A stretch of 34,790 bases of DNA from an uncultured Burkholderiales bacterium. GTDB taxonomy: Bacteria > Pseudomonadota > Gammaproteobacteria > Burkholderiales > Burkholderiaceae_C. The stretch lies in NCBI GenBank assembly GCA_903864315.1, contig CAIPFK010000061.1, forward strand, positions 1 through 34,790. Direction: 5' to 3'. Numbering within the stretch: position 1 is the stretch's first letter; each line of letters starts with the position of its first letter. The position numbers and the translations under genes are program-made. Shown piece by piece: positions 14,804-22,084 of this stretch. Below the pieces are notes generated by a model, which was not told where the DNA came from, made no database searches, and saw nothing but the letters and a program-made list of their open reading frames with translations.

Positions 14804-14811
14804 ATGTTTAA
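14788..14811 (+). promoter_or_regulatory. Seven-codon leader frame overlapping the next start
   Basis: AAAGGG at 14779-14784 is followed closely by an ATG at 14788, which opens seven codons ending in TAA at 14809-14811, overlapping the ATG at 14804. Translation of this leader could deliver ribosomes to the membrane-protein start, which lacks a well-spaced site of its own. The spacing of only three bases makes it tentative. Confidence 0.3.
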
Positions 14812-15511
14812 AAACAAAAGAATTTTGGGTCTGGCGTTGGCTTGTGTTTTGATGGTGTTGAGCTTGGTGCTTTACATCTATAGCCTTGGTGCGATCTCAT
14901 CGAGCAGCGAACCCGTCCAAGGTCAAGAGTTGGCCAAAGAGCTTGATCCCGAGCCAGAGAAGGTCATGGAAAAAGAATCTGGCAAGGAGGCTGAGACGGG
15001 GAATGCTCACGAGGCTCATGCCGATGGTGGTGTAAGCCATTCGAGTAAGGAAGAGACATCCAAAGTGCCTGTGGCTGAGCAGTCGCCCGATGCGCAAGGC
15101 AAAGAGATAGCCCATGATGCGCGTGCTCCAAAAGACGCACGCAAAGGGGCTGAGCAAGGGGTGGAGCAAAACGCTGGAAAACACGCTGAGCTTGTTGACA
15201 AAGGTCATGAGAGCAAGGCGCATGAAGAGCTTGTCGAGGTGGACAAAAAAAGCGAAGAATTCGGGACCAAATACCGCCCTCGCATCATCGGTCGATGCAA
15301 GGTGCTGTTTACCCAATTCAGTTTGCAAAAGATCGAACCCAGTCAGTTTCATGCGTTTGCGTATAGTTTTGATGGGAAAAGTGGATATTGCGCTGACTCG
15401 GGTGCTCAGAGTTCGTTAAAGTTGGCCCAAGAAGTAGCGCTCAAAGATTGTGAAAAGAACAAATTAAATGTGGATGGTTATGCACCCTGTTTTATCTATT
15501 CCAATAACTAG
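14804..15511 (+). CDS. Single-pass membrane protein with charged linker and Cys-rich C-terminal domain
   Basis: A 235-residue protein not recognised as a named family. Residues 8-27 form one membrane helix after a short basic N-terminus (MFKNKR), so the rest should lie in the periplasm. Residues 35-160 are a low-complexity stretch rich in Glu, Lys, Ala and His, probably disordered. The last 75 residues are a compact domain with four cysteines, in RCKVLF, GYCADSG, KDCEKN and APCFIY, that could form disulfides; the pattern of an Ala-rich helix followed by a Cys and a final Cys-aromatic strand is reminiscent of DUF4189-like domains, a weak resemblance. It is the first of three tightly spaced plus-strand genes, 14 bases before the zinc-ribbon coiled-coil gene. 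Function unknown. Confidence 0.8.
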   Translation: MFKNKRILGLALACVLMVLSLVLYIYSLGAISSSSEPVQGQELAKELDPEPEKVMEKESGKEAETGNAHEAHADGGVSHSSKEETSKVPVAEQSPDAQGKEIAHDARAPKDARKGAEQGVEQNAGKHAELVDKGHESKAHEELVEVDKKSEEFGTKYRPRIIGRCKVLFTQFSLQKIEPSQFHAFAYSFDGKSGYCADSGAQSSLKLAQEVALKDCEKNKLNVDGYAPCFIYSNN

Positions 15512-15525
15512 TCAAAGGTCAGAAA

Positions 15526-17154
15526 ATGAACTGCGATAAATGTGGAAAGTCCAATTCAGCTCAAGCCAAATTTTGTGGCAAATGTGGCTTCACGCTCAAA
15601 GCGTTGGTCGCTGAAGATCAGTCCTTGGTGGCACAAGAGTCTGCCGAATTGAAGTCTGAGCCGGTTCAGGCCATGGAGAGTGAGTCCAAACTCACCAAAG
15701 AATCCACTCGCCAAGAAGAAACCGTCGGTGCAGCGGTGGGTGAGCAGTCTTATGCCCGAAGCTCTGCGTCAAGCGATACAGTTGAGGCTTCAAGCGCCAG
15801 TCACAAAGCATCCCCATTCAACACTGGCCGTGAAGACATGCAAGATCCCCCGCCACCAACCAGCAGTCCGGCACCAAGCTTGCCAACACCTGCGGTGCAA
15901 ATGGCTTTGGTCAACACCAATGAATCAAAAATGAATTTGGGAGACGGCTCTGCCGTCTCGCCCGACGAGTTGAAGTCATTGATCAACAGTCAGTTCAACA
16001 ACAATTACTCCAATCAAGCGGCGATTAAAAAGTACCTCGATGCACACACTGAGCAGTTGAAGTCCATCACCTTTCAGCTCGAGAGTATCAAAAACTTTCA
16101 AGCCACCATCAATTATGAGTTGATCATCAATGAGATCAACGACAAGTACAACGCCATCACACAAAGCATCAACGAGAAGTTTTTCTCGCCCAATTTCAAA
16201 CCCTCAGAGGAGATGGATTCCTTGCTGAGTGATGTGGACGACAAAACCCATTTCTTGTTTGAGAAAATCAATTCACTGCTGCTGTCGCACAACCAGCAAT
16301 TGATGAATAATTTCCAGTCGGTGATACACAACATCGATCATCAAAATGCCTCCGTTTATGAATTGGTTCAAGATCAATTTAGCCATAAAAACGAAGAGTT
16401 GGCACAGACCCTCAAATCCGTGCTCACCCAGTTTGAGTCCACCGATGTGGTTCAAAATATCAATTTTGAGTCTCGTTTGTTGGACCACATCACCGAGGTC
16501 AAGCAACAAAATCTCGATGCCAATCGCGTCACGCAAGAGAGAATTCAAGCCCTTGAGATATCCTTGCAAGGCGTGGGTCAACTCTCTTCTGCAGAGACCT
16601 CAACCCAAACCGTGGACTTGATCGCCAAGCATATCAAATCCCAAGCACTCACCGGGGTGGAGAAAATCTCTACCCTCATGTCCAACAACAACAAGACCAT
16701 GGCCAATGTGGTGACTGCTGAGATTGGTCAATTGTTGGATCAAAAACTCCAAGCCCTGAAGTCTGATTTGCAGGGCAATTTGTTGGATTTTGAAACCCAA
16801 GTGAAGTTGGATCAAGAAAAACTCTCTAGCTTATTGAACCAGTCGGGCAAGATTGACCAACTCCTCAAGCTCAAAGTGTCTTCGTCCGCCAAAGCGTCCA
16901 GTTCTACCGAGGCGAGTGACCCATTGGGTGCTGCTGATGTTGAGAAAAACACCATCATTACCTTTGCGACAGGTTTGCTATGTGGCTTTACATTCCTACT
17001 GGGTGGAATGGCGATTTATAACCTTGCATTCAAGGACGATTTTGCTGTTCACAGCGCTCATCAAGTGTCTGAAACCAAAAACATAAAACACGAGTCAGCT
17101 CATAACTCTACTGAAAAGGCCTCGGGTAAATCTGTCGAGAAAGCCGCAGAATAA
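15526..17154 (+). CDS. Zinc-ribbon, coiled-coil, tail-anchored membrane protein
   Basis: A 542-residue protein of unknown function. A zinc ribbon opens it, with Cys3, Cys6, Cys17 and Cys20 in CDKCGKSN and FCGKCGF. Residues 25-140 are Ser/Glu/Pro-rich and probably disordered, including a PPPPTSSPAPS stretch. Residues 150-450 are long helices with many Gln, Asn, Glu and Leu at heptad-like spacing, predicted coiled coil. One membrane helix lies at about 476-502 (FATGLLCGFTFLLGGMAIY), leaving a charged 40-residue tail. The zinc ribbon and coiled coil should therefore be cytoplasmic and the tail periplasmic. AAAGGT precedes the ATG. It is the middle gene of the group, 14 bases from the first and 10 from the third. 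The architecture suggests a membrane-tethered scaffold or partner-binding protein. Confidence 0.85.
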   Translation: MNCDKCGKSNSAQAKFCGKCGFTLKALVAEDQSLVAQESAELKSEPVQAMESESKLTKESTRQEETVGAAVGEQSYARSSASSDTVEASSASHKASPFNTGREDMQDPPPPTSSPAPSLPTPAVQMALVNTNESKMNLGDGSAVSPDELKSLINSQFNNNYSNQAAIKKYLDAHTEQLKSITFQLESIKNFQATINYELIINEINDKYNAITQSINEKFFSPNFKPSEEMDSLLSDVDDKTHFLFEKINSLLLSHNQQLMNNFQSVIHNIDHQNASVYELVQDQFSHKNEELAQTLKSVLTQFESTDVVQNINFESRLLDHITEVKQQNLDANRVTQERIQALEISLQGVGQLSSAETSTQTVDLIAKHIKSQALTGVEKISTLMSNNNKTMANVVTAEIGQLLDQKLQALKSDLQGNLLDFETQVKLDQEKLSSLLNQSGKIDQLLKLKVSSSAKASSSTEASDPLGAADVEKNTIITFATGLLCGFTFLLGGMAIYNLAFKDDFAVHSAHQVSETKNIKHESAHNSTEKASGKSVEKAAE

Positions 17155-17164
17155 CGAGACAACG

Positions 17165-17827
17165 ATGAGCGATAAACCTTGTTTGTCTTGTGGCGTCTTG
17201 AACCCCAGTGATCACCTCTTTTGTGAGGGATGTGGCTTTAACTTGTCAGATTCCGATATTGCTCCGGTTTATATCAACACCTTAAAGCACGACAGTGTCC
17301 TCATCACCATTGATTTGTTTTACCGACGGATCTTTTATTTTGTATTGGCAACTTTACTGGGCGTAGGGGCTGAATGGATTTGGCATGATCACCAAATCAC
17401 CGCCGGTGTTTTGGCGCTGGCCTGGTTTGTCGCTTGGTATATTCCGCACGCTTTTCACCAGGCCATCACCCAGCCCATCCCCACAGAGATTCTTTCCAAA
17501 AATATCATTGCCTATGGGCCCGCTAGCAAATCAGGGCTGTTCATCGTTTCTTTTGGCATGTTTTACTTTCTTGACGATGGATTTTTCTTTAAATCCTATT
17601 CTTTTTTGGGACATGCTTATTTCCTGTTCATCGAAAAATCCAATATCGATTCGGTCTCAGGGTTAGAACAACTCCCTTTGGCACAATCCTCCTCCAAAAT
17701 ATGCATCACCCTCAAAGGAGGTGTTGAGCACCGCTTGAGCGTTTATAAACGCACCCAGTGGCTCATGTTGATGTACAGCCACGGCATCGATGTGCTCATT
17801 GAAGGCCTGCGGTTCACCAAGTCTTGA
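17165..17827 (+). CDS. Zinc-ribbon multi-pass membrane protein
   Basis: A 220-residue protein, not assigned to a named family. The N-terminal zinc ribbon uses Cys6, Cys9, Cys20 and Cys23 (PCLSCGVLN and FCEGCGF) and resembles that of the gene before it. Membrane helices are likely at about 56-73, 78-97 and 122-138. The C-terminal 70 residues alternate hydrophobic and polar residues (SSKICITLKGGVEHRLSVY then RTQWLMLMYSHG), a pattern like small bacterial PH-type domains; this is a weak structural guess. It starts ten bases after the upstream stop and ends the group. A shared zinc-ribbon start in adjacent proteins suggests the two act in one complex at the inner membrane. No terminator was found after it. 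Confidence 0.8.
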   Translation: MSDKPCLSCGVLNPSDHLFCEGCGFNLSDSDIAPVYINTLKHDSVLITIDLFYRRIFYFVLATLLGVGAEWIWHDHQITAGVLALAWFVAWYIPHAFHQAITQPIPTEILSKNIIAYGPASKSGLFIVSFGMFYFLDDGFFFKSYSFLGHAYFLFIEKSNIDSVSGLEQLPLAQSSSKICITLKGGVEHRLSVYKRTQWLMLMYSHGIDVLIEGLRFTKS

Positions 17828-18637: not shown

Positions 18638-21541
18638 ATGCAAGAGATCAATACGCAGAGACTCGAGAATTTTGTAGCACGTTTTACACGCCTCATTGAA
18701 TCTCAACCCAAAGAAGCAACGCTGTTGAGTCAAGGGCGTGAGCTTTTACATGAGTTGGTCAAACAAGATGACTGGCTCGATTTACCTTTGCGTGAGCCCC
18801 ATGCCGTTCATTATCAGCAGTATTTGTTGTACCTTGACCCCAAAGAGCGCTTTAGTGTGGTGAGTTTTGTGTGGGGTCCTGGTCAATCCACCCCCATTCA
18901 CGACCACACCGTTTGGGGTCTCATTGGTATGCTGGTGGGGTCTGAGAAGTGTCAACCCTACTCACGCATGTCCGATGGCAGGTGGGTGCCAGCGGGACTG
19001 CAGTTGGATTTGTTGCCTGGAGACGTTGAGCTCATCTCCCCGAGGTTGGGTGATGTGCACAAAGTTTGGAATGCTTTTTTGGACCAAAGCTCCATCAGCA
19101 TCCATGTGTATGGTGGCAATATCGGACGCATTTCAAGACATGTCTATCAACTTGATGGACAGATGAAAGACTTCATCTCCGGCTACAGCCCTGTCCCACG
19201 TTTTGTGGCCCAACCAGCAACTGCCCAGAGCCCTCCTCAAGGCGGCTTTCCCAACCGTGGGTCGGGCATCGCAAACCCACCGATTGATTCGCCGCCAAGC
19301 TCGATGGCGCATCTTGAGGCTGCAACTTCTCCACAACACCCAGTTGCCCCACCCAGTGCAGTGAAGTCTTGGATGTCCAAGAAAGCAATCGATCAAGTCA
19401 GTGCGCTGGCCCCCAAAGCGAGTGCGCAAGGTAAAAGTCTGCCCCAAGAATCGCTGTTGGGCTTGGCTCCTGTGCTCACGACACCTCCAGTGGCAGTGGC
19501 CTCAAACCCGACGAGCAATCCACTGATCCATGGTTCATCAGAGCCCAATTCGGCGATGGGGACACCTGCAAATCAGCCCAACACCACCAACACGGCTTTG
19601 AGCTCCAACAGTGTTCGCCCTTCTCAAACTGCATTCGCATCCAATGGCTCGGGACTGTCGATTCGTTCTCGGCCCAATTCGGTCAATCCTGCGAGTACCA
19701 CACCCACAACTGCACCCTCCATTGCGCCCTCATTTGCGCCCCAGCAAAGGCCACCAACCCTACAAAACGCGCCACTCGATCAAAGTGCAAGCACAAACCC
19801 CTCGCGCAGTGCTGTTCAAGAGCATGCTTGTGTTGTTGCGCCGCGTGAGGTTCACGCATTGACCGCGAATGTGGCCATGCATGTTTCAGCAGTGGTGTCT
19901 CCAAATGGTCCTGCTGTTTCAAGCGGGGATCCATCCCATTCTTTGACCAATCCCTCCTCCAAGACTGCTCTTTGGGTGCGCGAGCGATTGCTGGCTCGGC
20001 AAGAAGTGGCACTCATTGACTTGCGCGAAGAGGATCCCTTTGCCCGAGGGCATCCCTTGTTTGCGGCTCAAATGTCGATCTCACGTGTCGAGATCGACGC
20101 TTATCGACGTTTACCGTGTTTGGAGTCTCCCATAGTCCTGTACCACGATGATGTCGAGGTTGCCAAACGGGTTCAAGCGATTTTGCTGGAAATGGGCTAC
20201 AAGGCTGTTTATCTTTTGGATCAAGGTCTGAGGGGCTGGCATCAAGCGGGTCAAGAAATGTTCATCGATGTCAATGTGCCCAGTAAAGCATTTGGTGAAT
20301 TGGTGGCTGCGCAAAAACACACCCCCCACGTGAGTGCCACGCAACTGAAGTTTTGGCTGGACCAAAATGCAGACTTGGTGGTGCTCGATGCCCGACGCTT
20401 TGAAGAATACCAAACCATGTCCATTCCCAAGGCCACCAGTGTTCCGGGTGCCGAGTTGGTCCTTCGGGCACGGGCTCTTGCTCCACGGGTGACCACACGC
20501 ATTGTGGTCAATTGCGCAGGACGCACTCGCAGCAGCATTGGAGCGCAGTCCTTGCTCAATGCGGGGATTCCCAATCCAGTTTGTGCGCTTGAGAATGGAA
20601 CCATTGGATGGGTGTTGGCGGGTCAAGCGCTTGAAACTGGGTGTGATCGCACCTTTGGTGCTGTCAATGATGCGGACTTGACGAAAGCCAAGATGAGCGC
20701 TTTGGCCTTGGCCATTCGCAGTGGAGTCAAACGCATTGATTTGCAAGAGTTTCAGGCCATGAGCGCGGAGGTCTCTCGCACGACGTATTTGTTTGATGTG
20801 CGCAGTTTGCAAGAATTTGAAGAAGGTCATCTCCCCAAAGCAGTCCATGCACCAGGTGGTCAATTGGTCCAAGAAACGGATCATTTTGCGCCTGTGAGGG
20901 GCGCGCGTGTTGTGCTCTACGACACGGAAGGGGTGAGGGCCATGATGAGCGCATCTTGGCTGGCACAAATGGCCTGGGAGGTTTATGTGATCAAGGACGT
21001 TCGTTTGGGTGACTTGACCCGCAAAGACACACGCTACTTGAGTCCACCCCCCGCCAGCGGTGAATGCACAGAGGTGACACCTGAAGTGCTCAAAGAGTGG
21101 TTGGGCCAGCGCAACAACTTGACCATGGTGATCGATGTCTGTTCAAGCGCGCATTATGTGAAGCGGCATATTCCTGGCGCATGGTGGTTGTTGCGCTCTC
21201 AGATGAAGCAAGACTTCAATCGCGTACACAAAGCCAACCGTTACGTGCTCACGAGTGAAGATGGATTGAGTGCTCGCTACGCTTGGCAGGAGTTGAGATC
21301 TTGTGTGAAGGCCAATGTGGAGGTGTTTGTGCTGGTGGGTGGTACACAGGCTTGGAGCGATTTGGGGTTTTCACTTCAGCAAGGAGAGTCCTATCTTGCC
21401 AGTCCACGAATTGACCGTTATCAACGACCTTATGAAGGCGTGGAAAATTCTCAACAGGCAATGCAAGCTTATTTAGACTGGGAATTTGGCTTGGTCGAGC
21501 AGTTGCGAAAAGATGGCTCCCACCACTTCAGGGTCGTGTGA
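18638..21541 (+). CDS. Thiol dioxygenase fused to four rhodanese domains
   Basis: A 967-residue fusion. Residues 1-184 are a cysteine dioxygenase-type cupin with the iron ligands His88, His90 (PIHDHTVWG) and His141 (GDVHKVW) and the Ser154-His156-Tyr158 set. Gln61 stands where mammalian cysteine dioxygenase has Arg, which hints at 3-mercaptopropionate or a similar thiol as substrate. Residues 185-440 are a Pro/Ser/Thr/Asn-rich linker, probably disordered. Four rhodanese-like domains follow at about 444-550, 564-665, 700-800 and 813-912. Only the second keeps the catalytic Cys (Cys626 in CAGRTRS); the others have YHDDVEV, Asp762 and Ser873 at that place. The likely role is thiol oxidation to a sulfinate coupled to sulfur transfer or sulfite handling in the cytoplasm. 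Dioxygenase-rhodanese fusions exist; four repeats and such a linker look unusual. Confidence 0.9.
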   Translation: MQEINTQRLENFVARFTRLIESQPKEATLLSQGRELLHELVKQDDWLDLPLREPHAVHYQQYLLYLDPKERFSVVSFVWGPGQSTPIHDHTVWGLIGMLVGSEKCQPYSRMSDGRWVPAGLQLDLLPGDVELISPRLGDVHKVWNAFLDQSSISIHVYGGNIGRISRHVYQLDGQMKDFISGYSPVPRFVAQPATAQSPPQGGFPNRGSGIANPPIDSPPSSMAHLEAATSPQHPVAPPSAVKSWMSKKAIDQVSALAPKASAQGKSLPQESLLGLAPVLTTPPVAVASNPTSNPLIHGSSEPNSAMGTPANQPNTTNTALSSNSVRPSQTAFASNGSGLSIRSRPNSVNPASTTPTTAPSIAPSFAPQQRPPTLQNAPLDQSASTNPSRSAVQEHACVVAPREVHALTANVAMHVSAVVSPNGPAVSSGDPSHSLTNPSSKTALWVRERLLARQEVALIDLREEDPFARGHPLFAAQMSISRVEIDAYRRLPCLESPIVLYHDDVEVAKRVQAILLEMGYKAVYLLDQGLRGWHQAGQEMFIDVNVPSKAFGELVAAQKHTPHVSATQLKFWLDQNADLVVLDARRFEEYQTMSIPKATSVPGAELVLRARALAPRVTTRIVVNCAGRTRSSIGAQSLLNAGIPNPVCALENGTIGWVLAGQALETGCDRTFGAVNDADLTKAKMSALALAIRSGVKRIDLQEFQAMSAEVSRTTYLFDVRSLQEFEEGHLPKAVHAPGGQLVQETDHFAPVRGARVVLYDTEGVRAMMSASWLAQMAWEVYVIKDVRLGDLTRKDTRYLSPPPASGECTEVTPEVLKEWLGQRNNLTMVIDVCSSAHYVKRHIPGAWWLLRSQMKQDFNRVHKANRYVLTSEDGLSARYAWQELRSCVKANVEVFVLVGGTQAWSDLGFSLQQGESYLASPRIDRYQRPYEGVENSQQAMQAYLDWEFGLVEQLRKDGSHHFRVV

Positions 21542-21562: not shown

Positions 21563-22084
21563 CTACATTTGAGCCCAGCTGAACACAGAGTTGGGGCCTC
21601 TGGGGGAGGTATTGTGGGGCAAGGGTTTGAGCTTGAAGCGGTTTGCTTGCATGGCCGGTCGGAACTCTTGGGTGTTGGGTTGGGCTTGGCTCATTTTCAC
21701 CGCCTCTTGAAGCGACATCTCGCTCAATAAGACCTCTGAGGCGTGCTGAAACTGATCAAAAATCAACTCAGGGGACAATTTTTCAGGATGATCCTTGCTC
21801 CCCAATGTGATTTTCTCATTCAAGGTGGCTTCACGCTCAAACGGCTTTGCTATGGACCACAAGGCGGTGTTGGCCAAAGGGGAACGGGTGACGTAACCAC
21901 CACCGGGTCCCTTGTAAGAGTCGATCAGCTCACAGGACTTGAGGGTTGAGAAAATCTGCTCTAAGCACGAAATAGATACACCCATGGCGTCGCTGATTTT
22001 TTGCAGACTCACGGGACCAGTGGCTTGCAGTACCCCAAGCCAGACCAAAGCATTGATGGCATTGACTGATTTTTTTGACAACAT
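21563..22084 (-). CDS. Rrf2-family transcriptional regulator without cluster cysteines
   Basis: A 173-residue Rrf2-type protein. The winged helix-turn-helix spans about residues 1-65 (SLQKISDAMGVSISCLEQIFSTLK then KGPGGGYVTRSP), matching IscR-like proteins. The three cysteines that hold the iron-sulfur cluster in IscR, expected around residues 90-105, are absent; the only cysteines are in the DNA-binding domain (ISCLEQ and SCEL). The C-terminal 70 residues are not conserved with IscR. It is convergent with the dioxygenase-rhodanese gene, 21 bases away, and divergent from the MerR-type gene. Rrf2 proteins often govern sulfur or redox genes, so control of the adjacent thiol gene is plausible but unproven. 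A 22-base palindrome about 30 bases upstream of its ATG may be its own operator. Confidence 0.85.
   Translation of the reverse strand: MLSKKSVNAINALVWLGVLQATGPVSLQKISDAMGVSISCLEQIFSTLKSCELIDSYKGPGGGYVTRSPLANTALWSIAKPFEREATLNEKITLGSKDHPEKLSPELIFDQFQHASEVLLSEMSLQEAVKMSQAQPNTQEFRPAMQANRFKLKPLPHNTSPRGPNSVFSWAQM

Follow-up and report, generated by a model that had tools for sequence, protein, structure and literature searches.

A solved protein chain that carries four rhodanese repeats is Pseudomonas aeruginosa 1YT8, released in 2005, which we take to be PA2603; its name, thiosulfate sulfurtransferase, is the label given by its depositors. Fusions of a dioxygenase to rhodanese are known from the persulfide dioxygenases of the CstB/ETHE1 type, in which the dioxygenase has the metallo-β-lactamase fold. 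In Pseudomonas protegens CHA0, the 3-mercaptopropionate dioxygenase (3MDO) gene 3mdo and the gene tst form an apparent single transcription unit; deletion of 3mdo raised 3-mercaptopropionate (3-MPA), and deletion of tst had no significant effect (PMC12947264, 2026). A gene cluster of Advenella mimigardefordensis codes for mercaptosuccinate dioxygenase (MSDO), a cystathionine beta-lyase, and a rhodanese, and a similar cluster occurs in Variovorax paradoxus B4 (PMC5373536). Here we describe a gene that joins a 3MDO domain and four rhodanese repeats in one reading frame. It is located on a 34,790-nucleotide stretch of DNA from an uncultured Burkholderiales bacterium (GenBank assembly GCA_903864315.1, contig CAIPFK010000061.1, positions 1 to 34,790), which in its whole length is referred to as the window.

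The fused reading frame and its dioxygenase domain

The gene is a single unbroken open reading frame (ORF) on the forward strand with an ATG start codon, and the 967-residue chain described in the initial annotation is thus confirmed. A 3MDO cupin is followed by a disordered linker and four rhodanese repeats (residues 446-967; see Table 1). This ORF almost certainly arose when the two members of the known, widespread 3mdo-tst gene pair were fused in frame. An assembly error is unlikely because the fused frame recurs across the genus, and an artefact of this type was thus rejected as the origin of the fusion. The AlphaFold2 model of the complete protein (45 alignment rows) has a mean pLDDT of 75 and a pTM of 0.60; the cupin is confident, the four rhodanese folds are mostly confident, and the linker is of low confidence.

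Table 1. Features of the fused gene (positions refer to the window; residues refer to the 967-aa protein).
Feature	Position	Strand	Basis
Fused 3MDO-linker-four-rhodanese protein, 967 aa	18638..21541	+	ORF, Pfam, PDB matches, model
3MDO cupin, residues 1-185; H88/H90/H141, S154/H156/Y158, R167, G94	18638..19192	+	PDB alignment, residues, model, Foldseek
Disordered linker rich in Ser, Pro, Ala, Thr, and Asn, residues ~186-443; short helix of low confidence at 248-256	19193..19966	+	Composition, pLDDT, dN/dS in relatives
Rhodanese repeat 1; H503 at the catalytic-Cys position, no Cys	19973..20245	+	Pfam, model, alignment
Rhodanese repeat 2; the sole repeat with a catalytic Cys (C626, encoded at 20513-20515, in loop CAGRTR)	20336..20614	+	Pfam, model, alignment
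Rhodanese repeat 3; D762 at the catalytic-Cys position	20744..20995	+	Pfam, model, alignment
Rhodanese repeat 4; S873 at the catalytic-Cys position (21254-21256)	21077..21361	+	Pfam, model, alignment

The cupin was assigned by its match in the Protein Data Bank (PDB) because the Pfam family CDO_I scores 16.1 bits, under its cutoff of 23. The alignment of residues 6-184 with P. aeruginosa 3MDO (3uss/4tlf, E-value 4.4e-65) is free of gaps, and further PDB matches are 4wvz and Azotobacter vinelandii 6xb9. The complete cupin thiol dioxygenase with His88, His90, and His141 that had been proposed initially is borne out by this full-length match: the three histidines are present and align with chain positions 89, 91, and 142 of the P. 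aeruginosa enzyme, which we take to be its iron ligands. Ser154, His156, and Tyr158 are present as well, and Arg167 aligns with Arg168 of P. aeruginosa 3MDO, so that the Ser-His-Tyr motif and the substrate arginine are both found. Arg168 binds the substrate, and roles of the Ser-His-Tyr motif are described in the same article (PMC8503633). The numbering was checked with the engineered G95C variant 4wvz, the Cys of which aligns with Gly94. When the cupin of the model was compared by Foldseek, the target TM was 0.89 over 180 columns for 4wvz_A and 3uss_A, and 0.85-0.90 for bacterial 3MDO-type structures.

The cupin might instead be an ordinary cysteine dioxygenase (CDO), and the separate dioxygenase gene is indeed annotated as "cysteine dioxygenase" in two of the three annotated records described below (3-mercaptopropionate dioxygenase in the third). 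However, the cupin shows 54-57% sequence identity to solved bacterial 3MDO-type structures vs. 15-19% to the listed mammalian CDO structures, and Arg167 corresponds to the substrate arginine of 3MDO, which makes this assignment improbable. Mammalian-type CDO is characterized by Arg60 and a Cys93-Tyr157 crosslink; here, CDO_I remains below its cutoff and Gly94 occupies the Gly95 position (Cys in engineered 4wvz).

The linker, which has the approximate length of 250 residues given in the initial annotation, shows pLDDT block means of about 30-46 in the AlphaFold2 model. Its dN/dS in relatives is 0.58 (L003/L004), 0.56 (L001/L003), and 0.30 (L005/L006), compared to 0.01-0.08 for the domains, and the linker thus behaves as translated sequence. 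The pairs L003/L004 and L005/L006 were aligned over their whole linkers, and the pair L001/L002 yielded no ratio for the linker. Among genus loci, linker length ranges from 12 to 262 aa. Linkers of 12-19 aa occur in eight fused loci and are those of the earliest-branching members, long ones (194-262 aa) being found in the clade of the window protein and in L007/L009; the linker therefore probably grew after the fusion event. A short KSWM-like motif (window 19361-19405, residues ~242-256) is kept in the otherwise divergent linkers of L001-L006 and is possibly a binding motif.

A linker that is long, disordered, and fast-evolving might be cleaved or contain an internal start, so that two separate proteins are made as in other bacteria. 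In-frame start codons are present in the linker, among them a TTG at residue 408 (position 19859) with GAGG shortly before. Yet none of the in-frame ATG codons has AGGA, GGAG, or GAGG 5-16 nt ahead, and little space for a second start is left in the eight genus loci with the shortest linkers and in Burkholderia sp. lig30 (see below). We thus consider the production of two proteins quite improbable.

Active sites of the rhodanese half

The four rhodanese-like repeats that had been recognized behind the cupin are confirmed by sequence and by predicted structure. Pfam family Rhodanese (PF00581) matches four stretches (whole-protein E-value 3e-45), this half can be aligned with 1YT8 over its full length (E-value 1.9e-180), and the AlphaFold2 model has four rhodanese folds, with a Foldseek target TM of 0.95 to 1yt8 over 529 columns. 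The repeats had been considered new, which does not hold: the four-rhodanese structure 1YT8 is solved, and the gene for such a protein is often the neighbor of a separate 3MDO gene. A phage search yielded no match to the rhodanese half.

The catalytic-Cys position was taken as the residue that follows the strand leading into the active loop (model strands 499-502, 621-625, 757-761, and 868-872). It was compared in 188 distinct aligned rows, of which 34 are fused to and 76 separate from a 3MDO-type cupin, 5 are fused to and 21 separate from an MSDO-type cupin, and 52 have no cupin found; five named duplicates were left out, and L122 and L142 were dropped (<470 aligned residues). Repeat 2 has Cys and repeat 3 has Asp in all 188 rows. 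Cys never occurs in repeat 1 (0/188), where 154 rows have Asp. In repeat 4, Cys is found in 28/34 fused and 74/76 separate rows with 3MDO, in 0/26 MSDO-type rows, and in 10/52 others; L001-L006, the close clade of the window protein, have Ser. Because Cys is conserved at repeat 2 alone, there is one conserved active site and not four.

This bears on the sulfur relay that had been suggested initially, in which sulfur would be handed from repeat to repeat along one chain. Four rhodanese folds do exist (Pfam, model, Foldseek), but three of the four repeats are devoid of a nucleophile, repeat 3 and repeat 1 without exception in the 188 rows and repeat 4 in the clade of the window protein. A four-domain relay is thus extremely improbable.

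The six-residue loop CAGRTR of repeat 2 ends in Arg, which is kept in 187/188 rows. This is shared with the loop CAKGVR of yeast RDL2, which requires the terminal Arg for accepting sulfur from thiosulfate (PMC8533005).

Fused and unfused relatives

The genus sample comprises 37 genomes including that of the window (all genome samples were drawn by a tool). Both halves are in one open frame in 30 of them; for G025, one of the 30, the final ~90 residues fall into a different frame, and the cupin of G035 starts at a contig edge. A further genome, G022, has a contig-edge frame that combines the cupin and the first repeat. The other genomes have contig-edge fragments only (G001, G026), a weak single-rhodanese match only (G007, G012), or no match (G002, G028). 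An intact separate pair was not seen among the 37 genomes. The fused form is the usual one in the genus.

The 33 fused rows from the genus and from named relatives, which include a Limnohabitans metagenome-assembled genome (MAG) and Comamonadaceae MAGs, form one clade together with one contig-edge fragment (SH-aLRT 99); the DNA of the window thus probably stems from a Limnohabitans relative. This tree was computed without the five named duplicates, rows <470, and six more rows, and the separate-3MDO rows from L155 up were thinned to one-third; both trees reported here were run in quick mode. A second 3MDO fusion is found in Burkholderia sp. lig30 (L193), with about ten residues between the domains. 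It groups with the separate-gene rows L035 and L209 (SH-aLRT 99), apart from the genus of the window, and this group is nested in a larger branch of separate genes.

A parallel architecture, with four rhodaneses fused to an MSDO-like cupin, is found outside the 3MDO branch in other genera (L048, L049, L050, L061, L143, L244, L252). The cupin of L049 matches MSDO structure 8VNI (E-value 1.3e-31) and has no 3MDO match within the threshold; the cupins of the other loci were assigned by profile rather than by PDB search. In L253 (3067-5856), four rhodaneses are followed in one frame by a Cys/Met-metabolism (cystathionine-lyase-like) PLP enzyme, and a gene for an MSDO-like cupin is close by on the same strand. 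A tree of 95 rows requires a minimum of five changes between fused and unfused states, with gain and loss not distinguishable; one of the changes depends on L244, which is among three long rows flagged in this tree. Here, 30 chosen 3MDO-side rows were kept, and other 3MDO-side rows, rows <470, and eleven listed loci were dropped. ORFs were taken from stop to stop, and the N-termini of high-GC ORFs (e.g., 899, 857, and 920 aa) are not start-corrected.

The unfused form is a pair of adjoining genes. In three annotated plasmid records, the genes for the dioxygenase and the sulfurtransferase overlap by 4 nt (Paraburkholderia), 8 nt (Sodalis), and 4 nt (a Comamonadaceae bacterium). A scan of named genomes returned at least 598 pattern-matching stretches, at least 595 of which encode a relative, and the best 80 were retained. 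Among these best 80 of at least 595 loci, a separate 3MDO gene precedes the sulfurtransferase gene by no more than 303 nt, on the same strand, in 64 and lies 991-4194 nt upstream in 3; there are 10 fusions, and no 3MDO gene was found for the other 3 in the DNA examined. Outside the genus, 83 distinct loci were obtained from order and class samples. A separate cupin gene lies within 310 nt in 21 (6 of the 3MDO and 15 of the MSDO type) and farther off in 7, and fusions, all of the MSDO type, account for 5.

Five MSDO-associated loci have the gene for the MSDO-like cupin ~1300 nt upstream of the sulfurtransferase; L115, the only one of these that was scanned, has a cystathionine-lyase-like gene in between. 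Four loci outside the class of the window (L245-L248, family code f256) match approximately the first three repeats only, with frames of 429-442 aa, and a cupin was not found in the DNA examined around them. One neighbor from each of ten four-rhodanese loci was analyzed by Pfam, which gave mixed families without a common function (Bac_luciferase, TctC, cation ATPase, GntR/FCD, Cys/Met PLP enzyme, alpha/beta hydrolase in two cases, acyl-CoA dehydrogenase, TauE, and one without a family).

Proposed function and comparison with known systems

We consider it likely that the protein is a bifunctional enzyme that carries 3MDO and a four-rhodanese sulfurtransferase on one chain, the rhodanese half handling persulfide, sulfite, or thiosulfate. 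It is highly probable that both domains are active as named; for the sulfite, persulfide, and thiosulfate role of the rhodanese half taken by itself, we see slightly less than an even chance. The N-terminal 3MDO would convert 3-MPA and O2 to 3-sulfinopropionate at the three-His iron, and the flexible linker would tether the sulfurtransferase to the dioxygenase. C626 would form a persulfide, and the other three repeats would be structural or binding domains. Downstream, the persulfide sulfur and sulfite from the desulfination of 3-sulfinopropionate could yield thiosulfate, or the reverse might occur. The fusion would hold the two activities at a fixed ratio and near each other.

In bacteria that degrade 3-MPA, sulfite is released in steps after 3-sulfinopropionate. 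The MSDO product sulfinosuccinate is converted to succinate and sulfite (PMC5373536), and a rhodanese is able to catalyze thiosulfate formation from sulfite and sulfane sulfur (PMC10215317). Downstream sulfite may be the common denominator of 3MDO- and MSDO-linked sulfurtransferases, because the same sulfurtransferase family adjoins or is fused to MSDO-like cupins, whose product pathway yields sulfite. Transfer among persulfide, sulfite, and thiosulfate is the most economical assumption since a single-site rhodanese accompanies two enzymes, each of which leads to sulfite. The P. protegens data fit a step that follows the oxidation of 3-MPA, as deletion of 3mdo raised 3-MPA and that of tst had no significant effect.

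The rhodanese half could also act upstream by removing the sulfane sulfur of persulfides formed from 3-MPA or from other thiols, which would free the thiol for the tethered dioxygenase. Such persulfides could be made by the cystathionine-lyase-like enzymes that are encoded beside the sulfurtransferase family in some loci (L115) and fused to it in one genome (L253), and the active loop, by comparison with that of RDL2, is compatible with sulfane-sulfur transfer. However, the tst deletion in P. protegens is without a significant change in 3-MPA, and persulfide is not reported in the parts of that article consulted (PMC12947264). We thus regard an upstream role as doubtful.

Several points weigh against the bifunctional enzyme with a downstream role. 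The non-significant effect of the tst deletion equally fits a protein without any role in the 3-MPA pathway. The repeat-4 Cys is lost in the clade of the window protein, though kept by most 3MDO-linked relatives, so that the chemistry may differ. The best 80 named loci are top-scoring and thus biased to the 3MDO branch. No such cupin was found in 50 of the 83 order- and class-sample loci, with flanks of about 1.5-3 kb for most of them, beyond which a cupin would be missed; the sulfurtransferase family as a whole is therefore not tied to thiol dioxygenases. Finally, the neighbors of the fused gene do not resemble a sulfur operon. Upstream are three ORFs without a family above cutoff and a class II aldolase, and downstream are genes for an Rrf2-family regulator (in convergent orientation), a regulator of the MerR family, and a ParA-like protein. 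Neighbors of fused genes in other genus members are mixed (10 proteins). Searches of the own genome gave one match to PF00174, not necessarily a sulfite oxidase, as well as five to TauE, and do not speak for or against the sulfite reading.

Two features of this neighborhood recur. The three consecutive upstream ORFs (window 14804-17827, forward strand), one of which has a weak zinc ribbon, are kept in L145. The Rrf2-family regulator gene (window 21563-22084, reverse strand) also accompanies the fused gene in L002-L006; by tblastn, none was found in the short flanks (mostly ~1.5 kb) of L007-L030.

The joining of two enzymes in one protein is good evidence of a common pathway. That fusion to thiol dioxygenases has recurred with two families of these enzymes suggests a chemistry in common, and the fused enzyme would be a convenient single-chain reagent with which to test this. 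The articles consulted do not establish what the four-rhodanese protein does; the non-significant effect of the P. protegens tst deletion is not followed up in the section consulted (PMC12947264). More tentatively, the four-rhodanese protein might be an overlooked partner of bacterial thiol dioxygenases, its one-Cys sulfane-sulfur transfer being an unrecognized step of thiol catabolism; the fusion would then couple this step and the thiol oxidation in a single polypeptide. This draws on the pairing and repeated fusion with two cupin families (3MDO, MSDO-like) and on the lyase-domain fusion in one genome. We hold it to be rather unlikely, having slightly lowered an already low estimate because of the 50 loci without a nearby cupin.

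The literature search, which covered few subscription journals and was judged mostly from listings, did not find a thiol dioxygenase fused to four rhodaneses described. The initial claim of novelty nevertheless fails for the most part. Within the genus the fused architecture is the usual form, and it also occurs elsewhere. A persulfide dioxygenase-rhodanese fusion of the CstB/ETHE1 type was considered and rejected, as there is no Pfam match to metallo-beta-lactamase; such fusions likewise join a sulfur-oxidising dioxygenase to rhodanese, but the dioxygenase here is a cupin. The Advenella cluster also has a thiol dioxygenase near a rhodanese-related sulfurtransferase, in the gene order of L115, but with another dioxygenase family and separate genes (PMC5373536). 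With 3MDO from P. aeruginosa (PA2602; 3USS/4TLF/4WVZ) and A. vinelandii (6XB9), the cupin shares the gap-free alignment (3uss), the three-His site, the Ser-His-Tyr triad, the substrate Arg, and the Gly95 position, but is the N-terminal domain of a longer chain. 1YT8 has four rhodanese repeats in the same order and one active loop (CAGRTRS), but the solved chain is unfused and has Cys in repeat 4 where Ser is found here. The P. protegens 3mdo-tst pair has the same two functions in adjacent genes of an apparent transcription unit (PMC12947264), with two genes there and one here, the likeness being one of named functions. Both halves and their pairing are thus already known; the fusion, neat as it is, adds a novel variant to this familiar pair and does not amount to new machinery.

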